A stretch of DNA of 11,451 nt from Pseudomonadota bacterium. GTDB lineage: Bacteria > Pseudomonadota > Alphaproteobacteria > Sphingomonadales > SMXR01. Numbering within the stretch: the first letter of the stretch is position 1; every line of letters begins with the position of its first letter. Positions 1 through 11,451 of the stretch are shown one piece after another. The stretch lies in the NCBI GenBank assembly GCA_022568115.1, contig JADFFP010000012.1, positions 1-11,451 of the forward strand, in the 5' to 3' direction. The notes below the pieces were generated by a model. It did no database searches. It had not been told where the DNA came from and saw nothing but the letters and a program-made list of their open reading frames with translations. The translations under genes and the position numbers were made by a program.

Positions 1-713
1 ATCCGTACAACATTCCTTCTGAATCGATGCTCCCCACCCTGATGACCGGGGATTATATTTTCGTCTCGAAAATGGCCTACGGCTACAGCAAACACTCAAC
101 CCCCTATTTTTCCCTGGATCTTTTTGACGGGCGCATTCTGGAGGATGAGGTGAAGCGCGGGGATGTGGTTGTTTTCAAGCTGCCGCGCGACAATCAAACC
201 GATTACATCAAACGGGTCATGGGCCTTCCCGGCGACCGGATGCAAATGCAGGGCGGGGTGCTTTACATCAATGGAGACGAGGTCAAAAAGGAACGCATCG
301 AAGACTTTGTCTTTGAAGAATCGGCGAATATGAATTGCCTGCGCTATCCCAATTACCGCCACCCCCAGGCCCAGGGACCGGCCCAGTGCCGCTACCCGCA
401 GTATCTTGAAACCCTGCCCAATGGGCTCAGTTACAATGTCCTGGACCTGGAACCGTTCGGGCTTTCTGACAACACCCGGGTTTATACCGTGCCCGAAGGA
501 CATTACTTCGCGATGGGGGATAATCGTGACAATTCCGCCGATTCACGCAAACCAACCTCACTCGGGGTCGGGTTTATCCCGGCCGAAAACCTAGTCGGCC
601 GGGCAGTCATTATCTTTTATTCCAGCAATGGCAATGCGAAAATCTGGCAGGTCTGGAAATGGTTTGGAGCGGCACGCGGCGACCGGTTTTTGACCGGCCT
701 TCAGGCTGAATGA
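1..713 (+). CDS. lepB: Signal peptidase I (5'-truncated by window edge)
   Basis: Inner-membrane serine protease that removes signal peptides from Sec- and Tat-exported preproteins on the periplasmic side. The frame is open from base 3 and reads PYNIPSESMLPTL. This contains the SxSM catalytic signature, with the nucleophile Ser at 24-26, so the ATG at 27 cannot be the real start. The true start and the N-terminal membrane anchor lie outside the window. The general-base Lys is in YIKRVMGLPGD (codon 210-212), and the conserved C-terminal box reads MGDNRDNSADSR (near 513-550). Between these boxes a periplasmic loop carries two Cys about 17 residues apart. The stop codon overlaps the rnc start (ATGA, 710-713), suggesting translational coupling. 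Identity rests on all catalytic boxes and on the usual lepB-rnc-era neighbourhood. Confidence 0.97.
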   Translation, partial: PYNIPSESMLPTLMTGDYIFVSKMAYGYSKHSTPYFSLDLFDGRILEDEVKRGDVVVFKLPRDNQTDYIKRVMGLPGDRMQMQGGVLYINGDEVKKERIEDFVFEESANMNCLRYPNYRHPQAQGPAQCRYPQYLETLPNGLSYNVLDLEPFGLSDNTRVYTVPEGHYFAMGDNRDNSADSRKPTSLGVGFIPAENLVGRAVIIFYSSNGNAKIWQVWKWFGAARGDRFLTGLQAE

Positions 714-1411
714 GCACCCCTCGCAAAACCTCCAGCGCCATCGGGCGGCTGGAGAAAGCCCTTGGTCATTCCTTCCGGAATAAGGATTTATTGGTTCAGG
801 CCCTGACCCATCCCAGCCTGGAAGGGGAGCCCAATTACCAGCGGCTGGAGTTTTTGGGCGACCGGATCATCGGCATGGTCGCCGCCGGCATGGTATTCAA
901 AACTTTTCCCAAGGAACGCGAAGGAAAACTTTCCCGCCGTTTTTCCGCCCTGGTGCGATGCGAGACTTTGGCCCAGGTGGCCGGGGACATCGATCTGGCC
1001 GGGCATATCCGCATGACTGAAACCACCGTTCGCGCGGGCGGGCGTGAAAATCCTTCGATATTGTCCGACGTGGTCGAGGCGCTGGTCGGTGCGCTTTTCC
1101 TGGAGGCCGGCCTGACCGGGGCGGCAAGATTTGTCGAGGCTAACTGGGCCAAATTTCTGAACAACGGGAAGGCTCCCAAGGACCCGAAATCAGCGCTTCA
1201 GGAATGGGCGCAAGGGCGCGGGCGGCCGTTGCCCGAATACCAGGTGCTCAAAAGCGAGGGCCCGGACCATGCCCCGCGCTTTACCGTTTCGGTCAGCGTT
1301 GAGGGGGCGGGCTCAAAGACCTCTACCGGGTCCTCGAAACAGGAGGCCAGCGTCAAGGCCGCCGAAGCCCTGTTCGAGCAAATTCAAAAAGCGAAAAAAC
1401 CGCTAACATGA
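710..1411 (+). CDS. rnc: Ribonuclease III
   Basis: Double-strand-specific endoribonuclease that processes rRNA precursors and structured mRNAs as a homodimer in the cytoplasm. The protein has 233 residues, close to the usual 220-230. The catalytic domain covers about residues 10-150. Its signature is RLEFLGDR, with metal-binding Glu47 and Asp51; the second acidic pair is Asp120 and Glu123 in LSDVVEALVGAL. All four catalytic acids are present. A double-stranded RNA-binding domain follows at about 160-228, beginning DPKSALQEWAQ and ending with the SSKQEASVKAAEAL helix. Arg after the catalytic Asp is a frequent alphaproteobacterial variant of the signature. The gene starts inside the lepB stop codon and its own stop overlaps the era ATG, so the three are probably co-translated. 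Confidence 0.97.
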   Translation: MSTPRKTSSAIGRLEKALGHSFRNKDLLVQALTHPSLEGEPNYQRLEFLGDRIIGMVAAGMVFKTFPKEREGKLSRRFSALVRCETLAQVAGDIDLAGHIRMTETTVRAGGRENPSILSDVVEALVGALFLEAGLTGAARFVEANWAKFLNNGKAPKDPKSALQEWAQGRGRPLPEYQVLKSEGPDHAPRFTVSVSVEGAGSKTSTGSSKQEASVKAAEALFEQIQKAKKPLT

Positions 1412-2313
1412 ACACCCCTGTCACCCGCGCCGGATTTGTCGCCCTGGTGGGCGCCCCCAATGCCGGCAAGTCGACGCTTCTGAACGCCCTGGTCGGGGCC
1501 AAGATCGCGATCGTCACCCACAAGGTCCAGACCACCCGGAACCGCATTTTAGGGATCACTATCCGCGGCGCTTCGCAGATCATTTTTATCGACACCCCGG
1601 GGATATTCAAAAAGCCCAGGCGCAGGCTGGAGCGGGCCATGGTGGATGCCGCCTGGAAGGGCATCAGCGGCGCCGACCTGACCGCCCTGATGGTTGATGC
1701 CAAGGCCGGAATTACCGGCCAGGCGCGCTATATTGCTGAGGCTCTGAAAAAACAGAAAGCCCGGGCGGTGCTGGTCCTCAACAAGGTCGACAAGGTTGCC
1801 CGGGACCAGCTGCTGGTGCAATCCGAGCAGCTCAACAAAATGGCCGAATTCGAGGAAACCTTCATGATCTCGGCGCTCAAGGGGGACGGGGTTTCGGATT
1901 TATTTGATTATCTCAGCAAGGCCGTTCCAAAAGGGCCGTGGCTATACCCGGAAGACCAGATGACCGATGTCTCGCTGCGCTTTCTGGCGAGCGAAATCAC
2001 CCGCGAACAAATTTTTCTGAACCTTCACCAGGAACTGCCCTATGCGCTGGCGGTGGAGACCACCCGGTGGCAGGAACGCCGCGACGGCAGCGTTAGGATC
2101 GAACAGAACATCCTGTGCGACAAGGACGGCCACAAGGCCATGGTGATTGGCAAAAAGGGCGCCATGCTGAAGAAAATCGGCGCCGCCGCCAGAGAGGAAA
2201 TGGGCCAGGTGTTTGACCGCAAGGTGCATCTTTTCCTGTTTGTCAAGGTCAGCAAGGACTGGCTGGAAAAGCCGTTTCACTACCGTGAAATCGGCCTCGA
2301 TTTTCCCGGATAA
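1408..2313 (+). CDS. era: GTPase Era
   Basis: Essential GTPase that binds the 3' end of 16S rRNA and checks 30S subunit maturation. It has 301 residues, the family's normal length. G motifs are in order: G1 GAPNAGKST (15-23), G2 around Thr42-Thr43, G3 DTPG (62-65), G4 NKVD (125-128) and G5 SAL (155-157). The C-terminal KH RNA-binding domain carries the VIGKKG loop (246-251), which contacts the rRNA. The start overlaps the rnc stop as ATGA, and the recO ATG follows the stop after three bases. Pairing of rnc and era is widespread and fits their shared work on rRNA processing. Nothing is missing or unusual. Confidence 0.98.
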   Translation: MNTPVTRAGFVALVGAPNAGKSTLLNALVGAKIAIVTHKVQTTRNRILGITIRGASQIIFIDTPGIFKKPRRRLERAMVDAAWKGISGADLTALMVDAKAGITGQARYIAEALKKQKARAVLVLNKVDKVARDQLLVQSEQLNKMAEFEETFMISALKGDGVSDLFDYLSKAVPKGPWLYPEDQMTDVSLRFLASEITREQIFLNLHQELPYALAVETTRWQERRDGSVRIEQNILCDKDGHKAMVIGKKGAMLKKIGAAAREEMGQVFDRKVHLFLFVKVSKDWLEKPFHYREIGLDFPG

Positions 2314-2316
2314 AAA

Positions 2317-3042
2317 ATGGAGTGGAGCGACCATGCGATTGTGCTGGCGGCCAGGAAACATGGCGAGGGCCATGCCGTCCTCGACGTCCTGAGCCAGCAA
2401 AAAGGGCGCGCCCGCGGGTATGTCAGGGGCGGTTCCAGCCGCCGCCAGCGCCCGACCCTCGAGCCGGGAAACCTGGTTGATGTCACCTGGCGCGGCCGGC
2501 TCGATGAACACCTCGGCACGTTCCGGGTGGAGATGATCAAAGCCACCGCCCCGGACCTGTTCCGCAAGCCCCCGCGGCTGGCGGCGCTGGATGCCCTGAC
2601 CTCGCTGTTGGCCGCGATCCTGCCGGAACGGGAGGCGGTTCCTGAGATTTACAAGGAATGTCTGGTGTTTTTCACCATGCTGGGGGATGACGGCACCGCC
2701 GATACCAGTTGGGGGGCTGAGCTGGTGCGGCTCGAGGTTATGCTCCTCAAAACCCTCGGCTTCGGGCTTGACCTGAAAGCTTGCGCCGTCACCGGAGAGC
2801 TTGATAATCTTTGTTACGTTTCGCCAAAAACCGGGCGCGCGGTCAGCGCCGGGGCGGGGCAGGCTTATAAGGATAAGCTCTTGTCCCTGCCGGCCTTTTT
2901 GGCTGCTAATACCCCGGCCACGGCTGAAGATATCAGGGCCGGGTTGTTGTTGACCGGCCACTTTCTTGAGCGGCATTTGCTACTCCGGCCAAACCCCGCG
3001 GTGATGGAGGCCCGATCCCGCTTGGCCGGGTATTTTTCCTGA
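2317..3042 (+). CDS. recO: DNA repair protein RecO
   Basis: Recombination mediator that, with RecR, loads RecA on SSB-coated single-stranded DNA in the RecF pathway and can anneal complementary strands. The 241-residue protein starts with an OB-fold at about 1-80 (MEWSDHAIVLAARKHGEGHAVLDVL). A helical C-terminal region follows. It contains the stretch GFGLDLKACAVTGELDNLCYVSPKTGRAVS (split here as GFGLDLKACAVTG, then ELDNLCYVSPKTGRAVS), typical of alphaproteobacterial RecO. Only isolated cysteines are seen, not a clear four-Cys zinc site. The ATG lies three bases after the era stop, so it belongs to the same transcription unit. Assignment rests on recognisable family sequence and the conserved era-recO order. 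Confidence 0.94.
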   Translation: MEWSDHAIVLAARKHGEGHAVLDVLSQQKGRARGYVRGGSSRRQRPTLEPGNLVDVTWRGRLDEHLGTFRVEMIKATAPDLFRKPPRLAALDALTSLLAAILPEREAVPEIYKECLVFFTMLGDDGTADTSWGAELVRLEVMLLKTLGFGLDLKACAVTGELDNLCYVSPKTGRAVSAGAGQAYKDKLLSLPAFLAANTPATAEDIRAGLLLTGHFLERHLLLRPNPAVMEARSRLAGYFS

Positions 3043-3092
3043 AAAAAGCTATATCTAGTGGCGTGATCTGAAATATCTGCTATATTCGGTAT
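3043..3092 (+). promoter_or_regulatory. AT-rich recO-parC spacer, possible parC promoter
   Basis: This 50-base gap is much more AT-rich than its surroundings. It holds a TATATT hexamer at 3081-3086, seven bases before the parC ATG, and two ATATCT repeats (3051-3056 and 3073-3077 region). If TATATT is a -10 box, transcription would start at or next to the ATG and the mRNA would be nearly leaderless. I see no good -35 box at the expected spacing, so this is a weak candidate. No clear Shine-Dalgarno sequence precedes parC. Confidence 0.25.
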
Positions 3093-5342
3093 ATGAGTAC
3101 CACCGAAGTCCCCGAGGGTCAGGTTATCGACATTCCTTTCGCCAGCGCGCTTTCCGAGCGCTACCTGTCCTATGCGCTGTCGACCATCATGGCGCGGTCG
3201 CTGCCCGATGTCCGCGACGGCCTGAAGCCGGTTCACCGGCGGCTGTTGTATGCCATGCGGCTTCTTAAGCTGGACCCCGAGGCCGGCTTCAAGAAATGCG
3301 CCCGGGTGATCGGTGATGTGATCGGCAAGTACCACCCGCACGGCGACCAGTCGGTCTATGATGCGCTGGTGCGCCTGGCGCAGGATTTTGCCCTGCGCTT
3401 CCCGCTGATCGACGGCCAGGGGAACTTCGGCAACATCGATGGCGATAATGCCGCCGCCATGCGCTATACCGAAGCGCGCCTGACCAAGGTGGCGAAACTG
3501 CTGATGGACGGGCTGGAGGAAGAATCTGTCGATTTCCGGGAGACCTATGACGGCGAGGACCGGGAACCGGTGGTTTTCCCGGCCGGTTTTCCCAACCTGC
3601 TGGCCAATGGCGCCTCGGGTATCGCGGTCGGCATGGCGACCTCGATCCCGCCCCACAATGTCGCGGAGTTGTCCCAGGGCCTGCTGATGCTGGTCAATCT
3701 GAAACTGGGCAAACGCACCAACCTCTCTGACCGTCAGCTGGTGGAAAAAATCAAGGGGCCGGATTTCCCGACCGGCGGCATCGTGGTCGAGCCGTTTGAC
3801 AATATCCTGAAAGCCTATGAGACCGGGCGCGGGTCGTTCCGCTTGAGGGCGCGCTGGGAAAAAGAAGACCTCGGGCGCGGCAATTACCAGATCGCGGTAA
3901 TTGAGATTCCCTACCAGGTGCAGAAATCCAGGCTGATCGAGAGGATCGCCGACCTGATCAACGACAAAAAACTCCCGGTGCTGGCCAATGTCCAGGACGA
4001 ATCGGCCGAGGAAGTGCGCATTGTGCTGGCGCCGAGGTCCCGCAATGTCGAGGCCGAAGCGCTGATGGAAACCCTGTTCCGCCTGACCGAACTGGAGGTG
4101 CGCATCCCGCTCAACCTCAATGTTCTCGATAAAAACCGCAAGCCCGGGGTCATGAGCCTGCGCGAGGCGATGGAAGCTTACCTGGAGCACCGCTTTGAGG
4201 TGCTGGAGCGGCGCAGCCACTTCCAGCTCGATAAGGTCATCCGGCGCGCCGAGGTGCTGGACGGCTACCTGGTCGTCTATCTCAACCTCGACGAGGTGAT
4301 CCGCATCGTCCGTGAGGAGGATGACCCCAAGCTCTCGCTGATGGAAACCTTTAAGCTGACCGAGGTTCAGGCCGACGCGATCCTCAACATGCGGCTCAGG
4401 TCGTTGCGTAAACTCGAGGAACTGGAACTGCGGCGCGAGTACACCGCGCTCGGCCATGAACGCGAGGCGCTCGAGGACCTGCTGGAGCATGAAGAGCGCA
4501 AATGGGAGGAAATCTCCGAAGATCTGGAATACCTTACGGAAGAGTTTGGCCCGGACACCGATTTGGGCCGGCGCCGGACCACCTTTACCGATGCCCCCGC
4601 CGCTGAGGTTATCCCGTTTGAAAAGATGGTGGAAAAGGAACCAATCACGGTTATCTGTTCGAAAATGGGCTGGGTCCGCGCCATCAAGGGCCATGCCGGG
4701 GCCGCCGCCGGGCTCAAGTTCAAGGAAGGCGATCAGGGGCGCTTTTTGTTCCCGGCCTATACCACCGACAAGCTGCTGATTTTTGCCTCGGGCGGCAGGT
4801 TTTATACCATCACCGGCGACAAGCTGCCAAGCGGCCGCGGCCATGGCGAGCCGCTGCGCCTGATGATCGATCTGGAGGCAGGGGAGGAGATCGTCGCCTT
4901 TTTCGCTTATGCAAAGGGCGCCAGGATGCTGATCGCGTCCAGCGCCGGCAAGGGCTTTATCGCCGCTATGGACGGCCTGATCGCCCAGACCCGCAGCGGC
5001 AAACAGGTCATGAACGTCAAGGACCAGGTCAAGGCCAGGGTCTGCGTGCCGGCCACCGGCGATCACGTGGCGGTGCTGGGCGAAAACCGGAAACTGCTGC
5101 TGTTCCCGACCTCTGAGGTCTCGGAGCTGAGCCGCGGCCAGGGGGTTATGCTCCAGAAATATACCAAGGGCGGCCTGGCGGATGTCAAGACCTTCAACCT
5201 CGAGGACGGCCTGACCTGGACCATGGGCGGCAAGGAAGGCCGCAAGCGCACCGAACACGGCCTCGATTTCTGGCTCGGCAAACGCGCCCAGGCCGGCAAA
5301 CTGGTCCCCAAGGGCTTCCCGGCCCGCAAAAGTTTTGATTAA
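3093..5342 (+). CDS. parC: DNA topoisomerase IV subunit A
   Basis: Breakage-reunion subunit of topoisomerase IV, which with ParE decatenates replicated chromosomes. It has 749 residues, the usual size. The N-terminal winged-helix/tower core covers about 25-500. The catalytic Tyr125 lies in [11 protein letters not shown] and the arginine-rich entry region is [20 protein letters not shown] (36-55). A helical, acidic coiled-coil stretch lies near 440-490 ([20 protein letters not shown]). The C-terminal beta-pinwheel occupies about 500-749, with blade repeats such as [12 protein letters not shown]. ParC rather than GyrA is favoured by the short tail without a GyrA-box-like QRRGGKG motif and by the alphaproteobacterial ParC sequence style. 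The quinolone pocket has Gln86 where E. coli ParC has Ser80. The start is forced: an in-frame stop lies at 3069-3071 and no other start falls before the conserved core. Confidence 0.95.
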
Positions 5343-5369
5343 TCCACCTTGATTAAATACCTGGATTAA
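5339..5369. repeat. Inverted repeat across the parC stop codon
   Basis: TTAATCCA (5339-5346) is perfectly complementary to TGGATTAA (5362-5369), with a 15-base loop. The left arm includes the parC stop codon (5340-5342). GATTAA occurs three times at 13-14 base spacing (5337, 5351, 5364). No run of T follows, so this is not a classical intrinsic terminator. It could be an mRNA 3' end structure or the edge of the repeat cluster. Confidence 0.4.
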
Positions 5370-5372
5370 CCA

Positions 5373-5393
5373 CCCCCTCACTCCACCCCTCTC
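5373..5393. repeat. Degenerate copy of the C-rich direct repeat
   Basis: The 21 bases here match 5494-5514 at 20 of 21 positions (single C/T difference at 5382). This makes a direct repeat spaced 121 bases apart. Unlike the second copy, this one is not followed by a complementary G-rich arm, so it looks like a truncated or decayed copy of the element at 5494-5626. Confidence 0.7.
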
Positions 5394-5412
5394 TTCATTA
5401 TCGCTCACGCCA

Positions 5413-5460
5413 AATGACCTCCGGTCATTGCTCTAGCTAAGGGCGGCGGACGACCGCCGC
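5413..5460. repeat. Two short hairpins in the intergenic region
   Basis: The first hairpin is AATGACC-TCC-GGTCATT (5413-5429, 7-bp perfect stem, 3-base loop). The second is GCGGCGG-ACGA-CCGCCGC (5443-5460, 7-bp perfect GC stem, 4-base loop). They lie downstream of parC and also beyond the 3' end of the convergent dctM. The nearest T run (5484-5488) is too far from the GC stem for a standard Rho-independent terminator, though they may still slow polymerase or protect mRNA ends. Confidence 0.6.
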
Positions 5461-5493
5461 GCCAACGATTGTTGACGTTAAGTATTTTTCCAA

Positions 5494-5626
5494 CCCCCTC
5501 ACCCCACCCCTCTCCCACGGAGGGGAGAGGGAGTTAAAGTCAGGGCGTACCTCTATTTCCCTCTCCCTTGCGAAGTCCGCCATAGCCTTCGGCGACGGCG
5601 GAATGGGAGAGGGTAGGGTGAGGGTG
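5494..5626. repeat. Nested palindromic repeat element
   Basis: Two perfect 9-bp hairpins share the same arms, CCCTCTCCC and GGGAGAGGG: 5508-5516 with 5523-5531 (6-base loop), and 5559-5567 with 5605-5613 (37-base loop). The outer arms at 5494-5516 and 5605-5626 are imperfect inverted copies, so the whole unit can fold back on itself. The large loop contains further small palindromes, TCCGCC (5576-5581) with GGCGGA (5597-5602) and GCC-TTC-GGC (5585-5593). The form is that of dispersed intergenic palindromes (REP- or MITE-like). No protein is encoded. Confidence 0.75.
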
Positions 5627-5636
5627 AATTATTATT

Positions 5637-5744
5637 TGTCACCCCCGCGGAGGCGGGGGTCTGGTCATGTTTCCGCAAGTTCTATTGGCAGCCCATAAGC
5701 CCTCCATCAGGCTTGCCGGATACCGGCCTGAAGCCGGTATGACA
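5637..5744. repeat. Two-hairpin element bounded by TGTCA/TGACA
   Basis: The element opens with TGTCA (5637-5641) and closes with its complement TGACA (5740-5744). Just inside each end is a perfect 8-bp hairpin: ACCCCCGC-GGAG-GCGGGGGT (5641-5660) and ATACCGGC-CTGAA-GCCGGTAT (5720-5740). The roughly 60 bases between are not obviously structured. Paired hairpins with GTCA-type borders resemble dispersed extragenic palindromes of many proteobacterial genomes. It ends 12 bases from the dctM stop. Neither hairpin is followed by a T run. Confidence 0.7.
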
Positions 5745-5756
5745 GTTAATCTTCAC

Positions 5757-7316
5757 CTACCCAAATACCACCTCCGGCAGCCAGGTGGCGAGGGCTGGGA
5801 AGACCGCCAGCAGGATGAGCGCCAGAACCTGGATGGCGATAAAGGGAATGACGCCCTTGTAGATGTGGGAGGTCTTGACCTCCGGCGGCGCGACCCCGCG
5901 CAGGTAAAAAAGCGCGAAGCCGAACGGCGGGGTGAGAAAGCTGGTCTGCAAATTGACCGCGATCATCACCCCCAACCACAGCGGGTCGACCCCCATGATC
6001 ATCAGCACCGGTGCGACGATTGGCACCACCACGAAGATGATTTCGATAAAATCCAGGAAAAAGCCCAGGATGAACATCACCACCATCACCAAGATCATGG
6101 CCACGATCACGCCGCCCGGCAGGCCGGTCAGGAAACTTTCAATGTAGCCGTCGCCGCCGAACGCCCGGAACACCAGCGAGAACATCGCCGCCGCCAGCAG
6201 GATGGTGAAAATCATCGTCGAGGTCTTGAGGGTCGCGGTCATCACCTCCCGCAAGACCCCGGTTTTGTGGGCCGAGATCAGGCTTTCCGCAAAGCCCCAG
6301 GAGAACAGGGCCAGGAACAGCCAACCGGCGTAAGCCGGAAAGACCCCCGCCCCCGCCTGTATCAGCAAGCCGACCAGCCCGGCCGCCGACAGGGTAATGC
6401 GCTTCCATTTGTCCGGGGCCAGTTTCAGGCCGCCCAGCAGGATCGCGCCGACCGCCCCGACCGAAGCGGCCTCGGTCGGGGTGGCGATGCCGGCCAGGAT
6501 TGAGCCGAGCACCGCCACGATCAGGGCGATCGGGACCACCAGCGCCCGGAACAACCTCAACATAAATTTGCCGTCGATAATCTGGTCCGCACCGCGCGCC
6601 ATGGCGGGCGAGCTTTCGGGGCGCAACAGCGCCATCCCCGCCTGGTAGAGAATGTACAGGAGAACCAGCCCGAGGCCGGGAATGAAGGCGCCGGCGAACA
6701 GGTCGCCGACGGTCACCGTATCGGGCGAGAAAATCCCCATCTCGCGCTGCGCCACCTGGTAGGAGGAGGACAAAACATCGCCCAGCAGGACCAGCACGAT
6801 CGAAGGCGGGATGATCTGGCCCAGGGTGCCGACGGCGGCGATCGAGCCCGCCGCCAGCGCCGGGTCATAACCCCGCTTCAACATGGTGGGGAGGCTCAAG
6901 AGCCCCATCGTCACCACGGTCGCGCCGACAATCCCGGTCGAGGCCGCCAGCAGCGCGCCGACAATCGTAATCGAAATGCCCAGGCCGCCGCGCAGCCCCC
7001 CGAACAGGGCCGCCATCGTCTCCAGCAAATCCTCTGCAACTTTGGATTTTTCCAGCATCACCCCCATCGCGATAAACAGCGGCACCGCCAGCAAAACCTC
7101 GTTGGTCATGATGCCGTAAATCCGCTCGGTCAGCAGCGAAATGGTTCCAAAATCAAGGGCGCCGACCGGAACCCCGCTGACATTCTGGATCACCAGCCCC
7201 AAAAAGGCGAAAAAGAGCGCGGTCCCGGCCAGGGTGAAAGCGACCGGATAGCCCCTTATCAAAAGAAAGCCGAGGCTGATCACCATCAGGACAAACAATA
7301 TCAACGAAATGTCCAT
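5757..7316 (-). CDS. dctM: TRAP transporter large permease (DctM-type)
   Basis: Large membrane subunit of a tripartite ATP-independent periplasmic (TRAP) transporter. It forms the sodium-driven transport path in the inner membrane for the solute delivered by the binding protein. The protein has 519 residues and many hydrophobic segments from residue 5 to the C-terminus. Family motifs include PLFIAMGVMLEKS (79-91), the GGLRGGLG turn (106-113) and GTLGQIIPPS (163-172). Near the end is NLQTSFLTPPFGFALFYLRG. It is about 90 residues longer than classical DctM (about 425). The extra part is a central hydrophobic stretch around 305-350, as seen in large permeases paired with TakP-type binding proteins. 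The ATG is three bases past the dctQ stop, with a GGGAT-like ribosome site upstream, so the two are surely cotranscribed. It ends facing parC across the repeat-filled spacer. Confidence 0.95.
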   Translation of the reverse strand: MDISLILFVLMVISLGFLLIRGYPVAFTLAGTALFFAFLGLVIQNVSGVPVGALDFGTISLLTERIYGIMTNEVLLAVPLFIAMGVMLEKSKVAEDLLETMAALFGGLRGGLGISITIVGALLAASTGIVGATVVTMGLLSLPTMLKRGYDPALAAGSIAAVGTLGQIIPPSIVLVLLGDVLSSSYQVAQREMGIFSPDTVTVGDLFAGAFIPGLGLVLLYILYQAGMALLRPESSPAMARGADQIIDGKFMLRLFRALVVPIALIVAVLGSILAGIATPTEAASVGAVGAILLGGLKLAPDKWKRITLSAAGLVGLLIQAGAGVFPAYAGWLFLALFSWGFAESLISAHKTGVLREVMTATLKTSTMIFTILLAAAMFSLVFRAFGGDGYIESFLTGLPGGVIVAMILVMVVMFILGFFLDFIEIIFVVVPIVAPVLMIMGVDPLWLGVMIAVNLQTSFLTPPFGFALFYLRGVAPPEVKTSHIYKGVIPFIAIQVLALILLAVFPALATWLPEVVFG

Positions 7317-8991: not shown

Positions 8992-9738
8992 TCAGTGTTT
9001 TGGAAAATTGACCCAGTCATCATCGCTCAAAAATTCCAGCGGCTGGAAACGGGCCTTGTAAGCCATGGTTTTGCTGTCCTTGACCCAATAGCCAAGGTAA
9101 AGGTAGCTAAGCCCGGCGGCCCGGGCTTTTTGAATGTGGTCGAGGATAATAAACGTGCCCAGTCCGGAAGCGGCCCGGTCAGTTTTGAAAAAACTGTAAA
9201 CCAGCGACAGGCCATCCGACATGATATCGGTCAGGGCGACCCCGGCCAGGCTGCCGCTCCGGTGTTTGGCGCCCTCTGGCCCCATCTCCCGGTATTCGAT
9301 CAGGCGGGTCATGACCGGGCTGCTCTCGACCATTTCCGAAAATTCAAATTCATCCATTTCGGCCATGTCCCCGCCGGCATGGCGGGCCGTAAGATAAGAT
9401 TTCAACAAATTAAACTGCTCAAAACTGGCATAAGGGACCTGGTCTTCCACGGCCAGATGGTGGAATTTTCTTACCGTTCGCGCCATTGTTTTGCTGGGCT
9501 TAAAATCCTGGACCCGGACGCGCACGGAAATGCATTTTTTGCAATCCTCGCAGGCCGGGCGGTAAACGATATTCTGGGACCTTCTAAATCCCATGTGGCT
9601 GAGTGCTTCATGGCGCCTGGCCGGGTCGGGCCCGGACAGGGCGGTAAAGACCTTGCGCTCCATTTTACCCTTCAGGTAAGGGCAAGGGGTTGGGGCGGTG
9701 ATATAGAATTTTGGAAGTTTCAGACTTTGATCGTTCAT
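8992..9738 (-). CDS. bpt: Aspartate/glutamate leucyltransferase (N-end rule)
   Basis: Aminoacyl-tRNA-protein transferase that adds Leu from Leu-tRNA to proteins beginning with Asp or Glu, marking them for ClpS-ClpAP degradation. It acts in the cytoplasm. The 248-residue protein has the family's N-terminal block PTPCPYLKGKMERKVFTAL, then the YRPACEDCKKCISVRV cysteine cluster at about residues 59-74. The C-terminal acyltransferase fold contains YSFFKTDRAASGLGTFIILD and YLYLGYWVKDSKTMAYKARF. Length is standard (about 240-260). It sits between an SLC13-type permease (22-base gap) and the TRAP operon (14-base gap), all in one direction. No clear ribosome site is seen: GGGG is 12-13 bases from the ATG and a 12-bp AT palindrome lies between. 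Confidence 0.94.
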   Translation of the reverse strand: MNDQSLKLPKFYITAPTPCPYLKGKMERKVFTALSGPDPARRHEALSHMGFRRSQNIVYRPACEDCKKCISVRVRVQDFKPSKTMARTVRKFHHLAVEDQVPYASFEQFNLLKSYLTARHAGGDMAEMDEFEFSEMVESSPVMTRLIEYREMGPEGAKHRSGSLAGVALTDIMSDGLSLVYSFFKTDRAASGLGTFIILDHIQKARAAGLSYLYLGYWVKDSKTMAYKARFQPLEFLSDDDWVNFPKH

Positions 9739-9760: not shown

Positions 9761-11451
9761 TTAAACCAGATTATAATACCAGGAAGCGAACACTGTAAAC
9801 GTCCCCCACATAAGAAAAATCAGGAGTGTCCCGACCCGGGCGAAATCGCTGAAACGGTAATGGCCCGTCGCCATCACCAGCAAATTTGTCTGATAACCTA
9901 TCGGCGAGGCGAAAGAACAATTCGCCGCCAGCACCACCGCAATGACGAAGATCTTGGGATCCGCCCCGACCCCGGCCGCCAGCGATATGGCGATCGGGGT
10001 AAACAGCACCGCGGTGGCGTTGTTGGAAAGAACATTGGTGATGATGGCGACCAGCAGGAAAAACGCCGACAGGGTGACCAGCGCGCCTCGCCCCTCGGTC
10101 AGGATGACCAGCTGGTGGGCCAGGAATTCCGCCCCGCCGGTGGCTGAAAGGGCCGCCCCCATTGCCAGCGCCGCACCAATCAGCAGGACAATCCTGCGGT
10201 CCACCGCGCGCCCGGCCTGGCGTATGTTCAAACAGCCCCCGCCAATCATGAAGGAAACTCCAATCAGGGCGGCCACCACAATCGGCACCGCCCCGAGCGC
10301 CGCCAGCGCCACCACCCCGGTGAAAATGCCAATCGCCATTTTGGAATGATGGGCCAGCGGCAAATCCTCGGTCGACCATTCCAGCAGCACCACGTCCTTG
10401 TTGGCTCTCAAGGCCATGATGTCATCGGGCAGACCCATGATCAGCAACACGTCTCCGGATTCCAGCCGGGTGCTGTGGAGGTCCGCTCTCAGCATGCGTG
10501 AGCGCCGCTGGATGCCGAGGACGATGCAATTTGTCAGGTTGTGAAACCCGGCCTGCTTCAAGGTTCGCCCGAACATTTTTGATGCCGGCGCAATCATCGC
10601 CTCCGCCAGCATCTGCCCGGCCCGGGCGGTTCCGGGCGCCTCGGCCCTCTCAGCCGGGCTTTCTTCGACAATGCCACGCAACAATTCGGGCGATTTCTTC
10701 AAGACGCTGGTCAGGGCCTTGCGGGTTCCGGCAATCACCAGGATATCGCCCGGCTTCAGGGTGATATCCTCGTACGGGGGCAGGTATGAGGTTTCACCCC
10801 GCTGGACCATGCGGATGGTCAGGTCTTTTAAATCGGGAAACATCCCGGCCCGGGTTTTCATCCCGGCCAGGAAACCGCCCGGCATCACCTCGGCCTGGAC
10901 CAGAAACTGTTTGCCGCCCTCGAGGATATAGCTTCCGGCCAGGCTGGAGCGGTCTTTCAGCAGCCGTGGGGCGGCGAAAATGATGTAGATAAAACCAACC
11001 CCGGCCAGTACCGCCCCGGGAACGGTAAAATCAAAAAATCCCAAACCGGTGCCGGTGGCGCTCTCGAGAGCGCCCGAGACCAGCGCCTCGGCGTTCTCGG
11101 CCATCGAGCGATCGGACACGCGATCGATCCGCGCCGGGTCGATTCCGCCGAGTCGCAAGTCGTGCTGAAGGCACAACCACGGGGTGGGCACCTCGCTGAC
11201 GGCGCCTATCTTCATATTCAAGAGGTCTTCGAGCCGGAATTCCGGCCGGGGCTCGCGCCCGACCAGGAAGAACGGATCGCGCGCCACCACCTCGCAGAAG
11301 ATCACGAGGCCGCAATCCGGGTCGCGGTCGTAGGCGCGCATCACCCGCATGGGCCCGCCCCAGGTCACTTCCCCCTCGCCGGCGAGAAGGGCGTTCGGCG
11401 TCTCCGCCGGGTCGGGGGAAGCCGTGAGGTTCACCTCCACCCCCTCCGCCG
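9761..11451 (-). CDS. Chimeric ORF: ABC substrate-binding protein fragment fused to N-truncated SLC13/DASS permease with RCK_C domains
   Basis: One continuous frame runs to the window's right edge and beyond; the GTG at 11440 is internal, since AEGVEVNL reads through it. Residues 1-122 (numbered from that GTG) are the N-terminal lobe of an NMT1/THI5-like ABC binding protein. From residue about 127 (ATGTGLGFFDFTVPG) the sequence is an SLC13/DASS sodium-anion symporter. It has a membrane helix at 138-158, two RCK_C (TrkA_C) regulatory domains at about 172-248 and 275-360, and a C-terminal membrane half at about 365-559. The second SNT-type signature is present (SNNATAVLFTPIA, then FASPIGYQTNLLVMATGHYRF). 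The first membrane half with its matching signature is absent, so this product could hardly transport. The authentic gene is presumably a sulfate- or dicarboxylate-type permease upstream of bpt. Either the right 380 bases belong elsewhere or a real deletion/fusion occurred. Confidence 0.85.
   Translation of the reverse strand, partial: AEGVEVNLTASPDPAETPNALLAGEGEVTWGGPMRVMRAYDRDPDCGLVIFCEVVARDPFFLVGREPRPEFRLEDLLNMKIGAVSEVPTPWLCLQHDLRLGGIDPARIDRVSDRSMAENAEALVSGALESATGTGLGFFDFTVPGAVLAGVGFIYIIFAAPRLLKDRSSLAGSYILEGGKQFLVQAEVMPGGFLAGMKTRAGMFPDLKDLTIRMVQRGETSYLPPYEDITLKPGDILVIAGTRKALTSVLKKSPELLRGIVEESPAERAEAPGTARAGQMLAEAMIAPASKMFGRTLKQAGFHNLTNCIVLGIQRRSRMLRADLHSTRLESGDVLLIMGLPDDIMALRANKDVVLLEWSTEDLPLAHHSKMAIGIFTGVVALAALGAVPIVVAALIGVSFMIGGGCLNIRQAGRAVDRRIVLLIGAALAMGAALSATGGAEFLAHQLVILTEGRGALVTLSAFFLLVAIITNVLSNNATAVLFTPIAISLAAGVGADPKIFVIAVVLAANCSFASPIGYQTNLLVMATGHYRFSDFARVGTLLIFLMWGTFTVFASWYYNLV
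11057..11074. repeat. Perfect 18-bp palindrome at the fusion point
   Basis: GGCGCTCTCGAGAGCGCC is fully self-complementary. It encodes residues 123-128 (GALESA) of the chimeric ORF, exactly where binding-protein sequence gives way to SLC13 sequence. Its position makes it the likely join site, by microhomology or template switching. Confidence 0.9.
11063..11451 (-). other. N-terminal fragment of an NMT1/THI5-like ABC transporter substrate-binding protein
   Basis: This segment encodes AEGVEVNLTASPDPAETP, then EGEVTWGGPMRVMRAYD, FCEVVARDPFFLVGREPRP and VGTVSEVPTPWLCLQHDL-like sequence (here IGAVSEVPTPWLCLQHDLR). These stretches are typical of SsuA/THI5-type periplasmic or lipid-anchored binding proteins. 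The ligand is unknown. The true start lies beyond the window. Normally SMAENAEALVSGAL would continue into the second lobe; instead the frame enters the SLC13 permease. GC in 11101-11400 is about 68% by hand count, against about 62% in 10441-10740. Confidence 0.8.

Follow-up and report, generated by a model that had tools for sequence, protein, structure and literature searches.

In DASS transporters the SNT motifs are distributed one to each repeat, so that the two halves of the permease both contain one. Substrate is bound through the two motifs, as described for the family in PMC7553777. Fusions between a binding protein and a symporter are also on record, as the TAXI-GltS proteins of Lachnospiraceae (PMC12344293), in which the binding protein is placed N-terminal to the secondary transporter in one frame. 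From another direction, PMC7299287 describes how short-read metagenome assemblers can build chimeric contigs through shared k-mers. Here we analyze a window of 11,451 nucleotides, which is the entire contig C236 of assembly G000 (1,588,831 bases in 307 contigs, i.e., a fragmented assembly of 1.59 Mb that is 71.4% complete). The window ends in an open reading frame that shares the order of domains with the TAXI-GltS fusions, but is made from other protein families and, while TAXI-GltS proteins occur in several bacteria, is joined in this way in one contig only. We consider it very probable that the fused frame is an assembly chimera at a contig end, and not a real biological feature.

Results

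Two incomplete genes in one frame

The minus-strand frame (9761–11449) encodes 562 residues and runs uninterrupted from the contig edge at 11449 to a stop codon at 9761, with matches to binding proteins and to SLC13 permeases, as the first-pass annotation had proposed. It is open at the edge, where it is truncated, and since it is cut there, the GTG at 11440 cannot be regarded as its start codon. Residues 1 to about 122 constitute a fragment of an NMT1-type binding protein, and the remainder is an SLC13/DASS permease (Table 1). The neighboring ate/bpt gene has the same position in both congeners examined (G001 and G002), and the corresponding reading frames adjoin the permease in loci L003 and L004.

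Table 1 Features of the window at and near the join
Feature	Coordinates	Strand	Basis
3' two-thirds of SLC13/DASS-type permease gene with RCK_C domains, native DNA	9761..11084	-	Identity to G002:C81; intact orthologues
Foreign tail: fragment of NMT1/PF13379-type ABC solute-binding protein gene, cut by contig edge	11085..11451	-	Homologues; absence in relatives; GC
Zone of the probable false join	11070..11084	-	Junction alignments
18-base perfect palindrome, native to permease gene	11057..11074	.	Identical 18 bases at G002:C81:6685
Arginyl/leucyl-tRNA-protein transferase (ate/bpt), native neighbor	8992..9738	-	PF04376/PF04377

Elsewhere in the window, positions 5370–5760 hold a dispersed intergenic repeat between the convergent genes parC and dctM, with about 70 short matches in G002. 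The gene order of G002 changes at this repeat (window 3–5539 lies on its contig C26, and positions from 5628 on lie on C81). The arrangement of the window, with the end of parC adjacent to dctM, is found in G001 on C89.

The permease and its intact congener gene

In a Pfam profile search the permease part matched PF03600 (CitMHS, E = 2.9e-39, 135.6 bits against a cut-off of 31.9) and PF02080 (TrkA_C/RCK_C, E = 3.3e-21). The best stretch of the PF03600 match spans profile positions 146–335 of 336, and the full-length SLC13/DASS model TIGR00785 is matched only over positions 243–439 of 444, at 65.4 bits against a cut-off of 198.6. Both congeners carry an intact orthologue with RCK_C, i.e., an ordinary SLC13/DASS permease encoded by a reading frame of 618 residues in G002 and of 616 residues in G001. 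The window frame represents the 3' part of this same PF03600/PF02080 gene; it is 95% identical to the intact 618-residue protein P0004 over 446 residues, and begins at about residue 178 of the congener gene (with the motif LVSGALES at residue 179 of 618). The contig departs from the gene at 11084, and about 177 residues are missing from the N-terminus as a result.

The intact permease has an NNT element (IMNNT, from residue 127) in its first half, which aligns with SNNAT (residue 531 of 618) in the second half. Judged by these letters, the two would correspond to SNT-type motifs, and both are present within the single uninterrupted gene of each congener. In the window frame SNNAT (residue 475) stands alone, and IMNNT is missing with the first half. 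The suggestion that the permease lacks its first repeat is borne out. We do not expect a working transporter, as the first half is lost at the join. The permease query found matches in 57 of 59 relatives (58 of 60 genomes when its own is included), and among the matches listed every permease row starts at residue 116 or later, apart from that of the window itself.

A binding-protein fragment foreign to the lineage

Residues 1–125 match solute-binding proteins of the NMT1/PF13379 type, with 692 proteins at E ≤ 1e-3 among 1275 candidates. The best 120 of these 692 are stand-alone proteins of 309–351 residues, and are 57–69% identical to the tail. The tail is a fragment, and for this reason does not reach the Pfam cut-offs when the 562-residue sequence is used as query (NMT1, 13.0 against 20.5 bits; Phosphonate-bd, 13.7 against 27). 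It starts at residue 28–49 of its closest homologues, which are 315–327 residues long, so that the N-terminus and the C-terminal half are both absent. Compared with a complete two-lobe NitT/TauT-type ABC substrate-binding protein (NMT1/THI5-like, PF13379/PF09084), it covers only about residues 28–149 of about 315, and stands in the wrong genome context. The first-pass annotation had described a binding lobe without its second lobe; the C-terminal half is indeed missing, however, the description is incomplete, as the N-terminus is lost too. Its view that neither half looks functional appears well founded from the protein sequences, with the binding protein deprived of its C-terminal half and the permease of its first.

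A search of the genomes of the 59 relatives with the 132-residue piece gave no match, which leads us to reject the tail as a normal gene of the lineage. In G000 itself, the sole match is at this place, and no paralogous copy was found as a source. At the DNA level, the tail was unmatched in 24 unmasked contigs of G000 and in 100 stretches of G002. The donor gene was not found, the best match being 69% identical at the protein level; relatives of the tail in named genomes belong to mixed groups and do not exceed 65% identity (of 225 stretches, 168 were confirmed and 80 kept).

The GC content of the tail is 0.692, a value reached by 6 of 1118 overlapping 367-base windows of G000. Its third-position GC of 0.884 is reached by 4 of 147 coding windows, and one of the 147 reaches both measures (baseline, 10 usable of 19 G000 contigs, plus the window). 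The composition is thus a weak supporting sign of foreignness, high yet within the range of the genome.

No second example of the architecture

Each half was also searched separately. None of the best 120 of 2516 permease homologues (7999 candidates scored) matches residues 1–115, and none of the best 120 of 692 binding-protein homologues matches residues 126–562; the full architecture, which the first-pass annotation had proposed to look for in other genomes, was therefore found in none of the 240 homologues listed, and the congeners keep the ordinary gene. Two permease homologues of unusual length or coverage were inspected and dismissed as fusions. P0102, with 85% query coverage, is an ordinary permease of 620 residues with a chance N-terminal extension. 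P0012 (759 residues) contains no binding protein; it has an internal repeat of permease sequence, an apparent tandem duplication of the RCK_C/second-half region.

Identity to the congener ends at the join

Positions 5636–11084 of C236 align with G002:C81:12123–6675 at 96.5% DNA identity. On the permease side, G002 and the window agree without exception over the 75 bases up to 11084; outward from it 117 of 367 bases agree (32%), in accordance with the abrupt switch reported earlier. In the junction alignments, at least the letters GCTG (11084–11081) are common to the permease and to most of the 25 binding-protein loci compared, and because they are shared at the switch, its exact position cannot be placed to the base. 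The first-pass annotation had regarded the palindrome as the break. We reject this assignment, since the same 18 bases are present in the congener as native permease DNA, and lie 10 bases inside the permease.

The DNA expected upstream of the permease is found on another contig. Positions 1–948 of L003, the congener locus in G002, match C101:1–949 at 96% in a search of G000, up to the contig end, and all 5503 bases of C101 are collinear with G002:C81:6111–607 at 94.3% identity. C101 stops 31 bases before the start of the congener permease, and the alignment of C236 begins again at C81:6675. Between these two facing contig ends lie 563 bases, which contain the start and 5' half of the permease gene. 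These 563 bases were not found in G000; short matches on C49 and C307 (26 and 55 bases) were considered and are not the missing half. The facing ends of C101 and C236, with the tail standing where the 5' part of the permease should begin, are the strongest evidence against the tail belonging to this gene.

Similar breaks at other contig ends

For a survey of contig ends, 39 other contigs of G000 were taken, of which 15 were wholly masked and 24 usable; C101, C307, C49, and C184 were chosen for their matches in earlier searches, and the other contigs by number. The 24 usable contigs and the window were compared with the 100 stretches of G002, which amount to 1,168,121 of about 1.9 million bases. 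A G002 match of at least 500 bases was found for 17 contigs, and of their 34 ends two reflect the 9000-base length analyzed, which leaves 32 true ends. In six of these, the match to G002 ends within a gene (C236, C225, C228, C184, C120, and C230), and a seventh break, in C229, lies inside a reading frame that is not gene-like. Further contig ends carry longer unmatched tails, which are possibly real gene differences.

C225 provides a close parallel to C236. In this contig (L154, positions 1–951, plus strand, break at 222) 221 foreign bases, a piece of a pyridine-nucleotide oxidoreductase, run in frame into an enolase-superfamily (MR_MLE) gene and make a nonsense fusion at the contig end, and the congener carries the ordinary version of the gene. 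Two ends are likely cross-species chimeras: in C230 (L159, 2356–3045) a divergent E2 acyltransferase passes into the native one, and in C120 (L120, 4819–4890) the native metG passes into a divergent metG, in both cases with the switch at a conserved motif that, for the acyltransferase, is shared. At the ends of C228 (L157, 2845–3071) and C184 (L110, 1–525), the native sequence breaks off within a diacylglycerol-kinase-like gene and a DUF885 gene, respectively. The native continuation was located for two of five breaks tested, i.e., C236 and C228, the latter having its upstream continuation at the end of contig C231; for C225, C184, and C120 it was sought in the 71%-complete assembly and not found. 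Repeated short tails at contig ends fit mis-assembly better than recombination; single cases could be recombination.

Discussion

The native locus would hold a permease of about 618 residues between a 3-hydroxyisobutyrate-dehydrogenase-like gene (on C101) and ate with a TRAP transporter (on C236). In the extension of C236 past about position 11084, a short sequence common to both genes most likely led the assembler off the true path and into a GC-rich binding-protein gene unrelated to the permease, where it stopped after 367 bases. This path, and a donor that was probably another organism in the sample, are the parts of the account that we infer. The congener gene is intact, identity to it ends abruptly, its neighbor stands at the end of C101, the tail is alien, and similar tails are present at five other contig ends; an assembly chimera is supported for these reasons. 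The same observations favor the chimeric contig in the earlier proposal of a chimeric contig or a deletion, and lend no support to the deletion, since a plain deletion would not import foreign binding-protein DNA that is absent from relatives. Compared with the inter-species chimeric contigs described in PMC7299287, the contig would likewise combine two genomes, but the mis-join in C236 yields an open frame that resembles a protein fusion, and the linking sequence is short.

Several observations count against a chimera. No stop codon interrupts the frame at the join, the GC content of the tail is within the genome range, its donor gene was not found, and of four further broken contigs tested, three gave no native continuation. 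The open frame may have arisen by chance, or from shared letters in the same codon phase; about one in three joins is in frame, and a shared frame therefore needs no function. The open frame would also fit a strain-level rearrangement, in which DNA of a foreign binding-protein gene entered the permease gene by recombination, with a dead or truncated fusion gene as the outcome; as C101 ends 31 bases ahead of the permease, the G000 sequence beyond it is unseen. Such an event would require that a gene family without a match in the 59 relatives was captured recently, and that the capture coincides exactly with a contig edge. Similar events would have to be assumed for five further ends among the 32, which makes this explanation very unlikely. 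A real and recent in-frame capture in this strain alone, with a fusion product that works in part or not at all, has in our estimate a slightly slimmer chance still.

A working receptor-symporter fusion, in which the binding-protein lobe feeds substrate to half an SLC13 permease, is not without analogy, as secondary transporters that depend on binding proteins, or are even fused to them, exist in the TRAP and TAXI-GltS systems (PMC12344293). Here, however, the binding protein has no C-terminal half, the permease is without the N-terminal region that includes the NNT element although two SNT motifs are used by DASS transporters (PMC7553777), the architecture is found in none of the homologues listed, and the congeners keep an ordinary gene, so that we regard this possibility as practically negligible. 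The first-pass annotation held that a receptor-symporter fusion would be new; with TAXI-GltS fusions already described in PMC12344293, the window frame, even if real, would have precedents.

In our preferred reading as an assembly chimera, the window frame adds no new transporter type. Several foreign tails are present at contig ends of the assembly. Some are in frame, and tails of this kind can enter protein databases as novel domain fusions. Comparison with a congener, combined with finding the true neighbor at another contig end, provides a simple test that exposes them.
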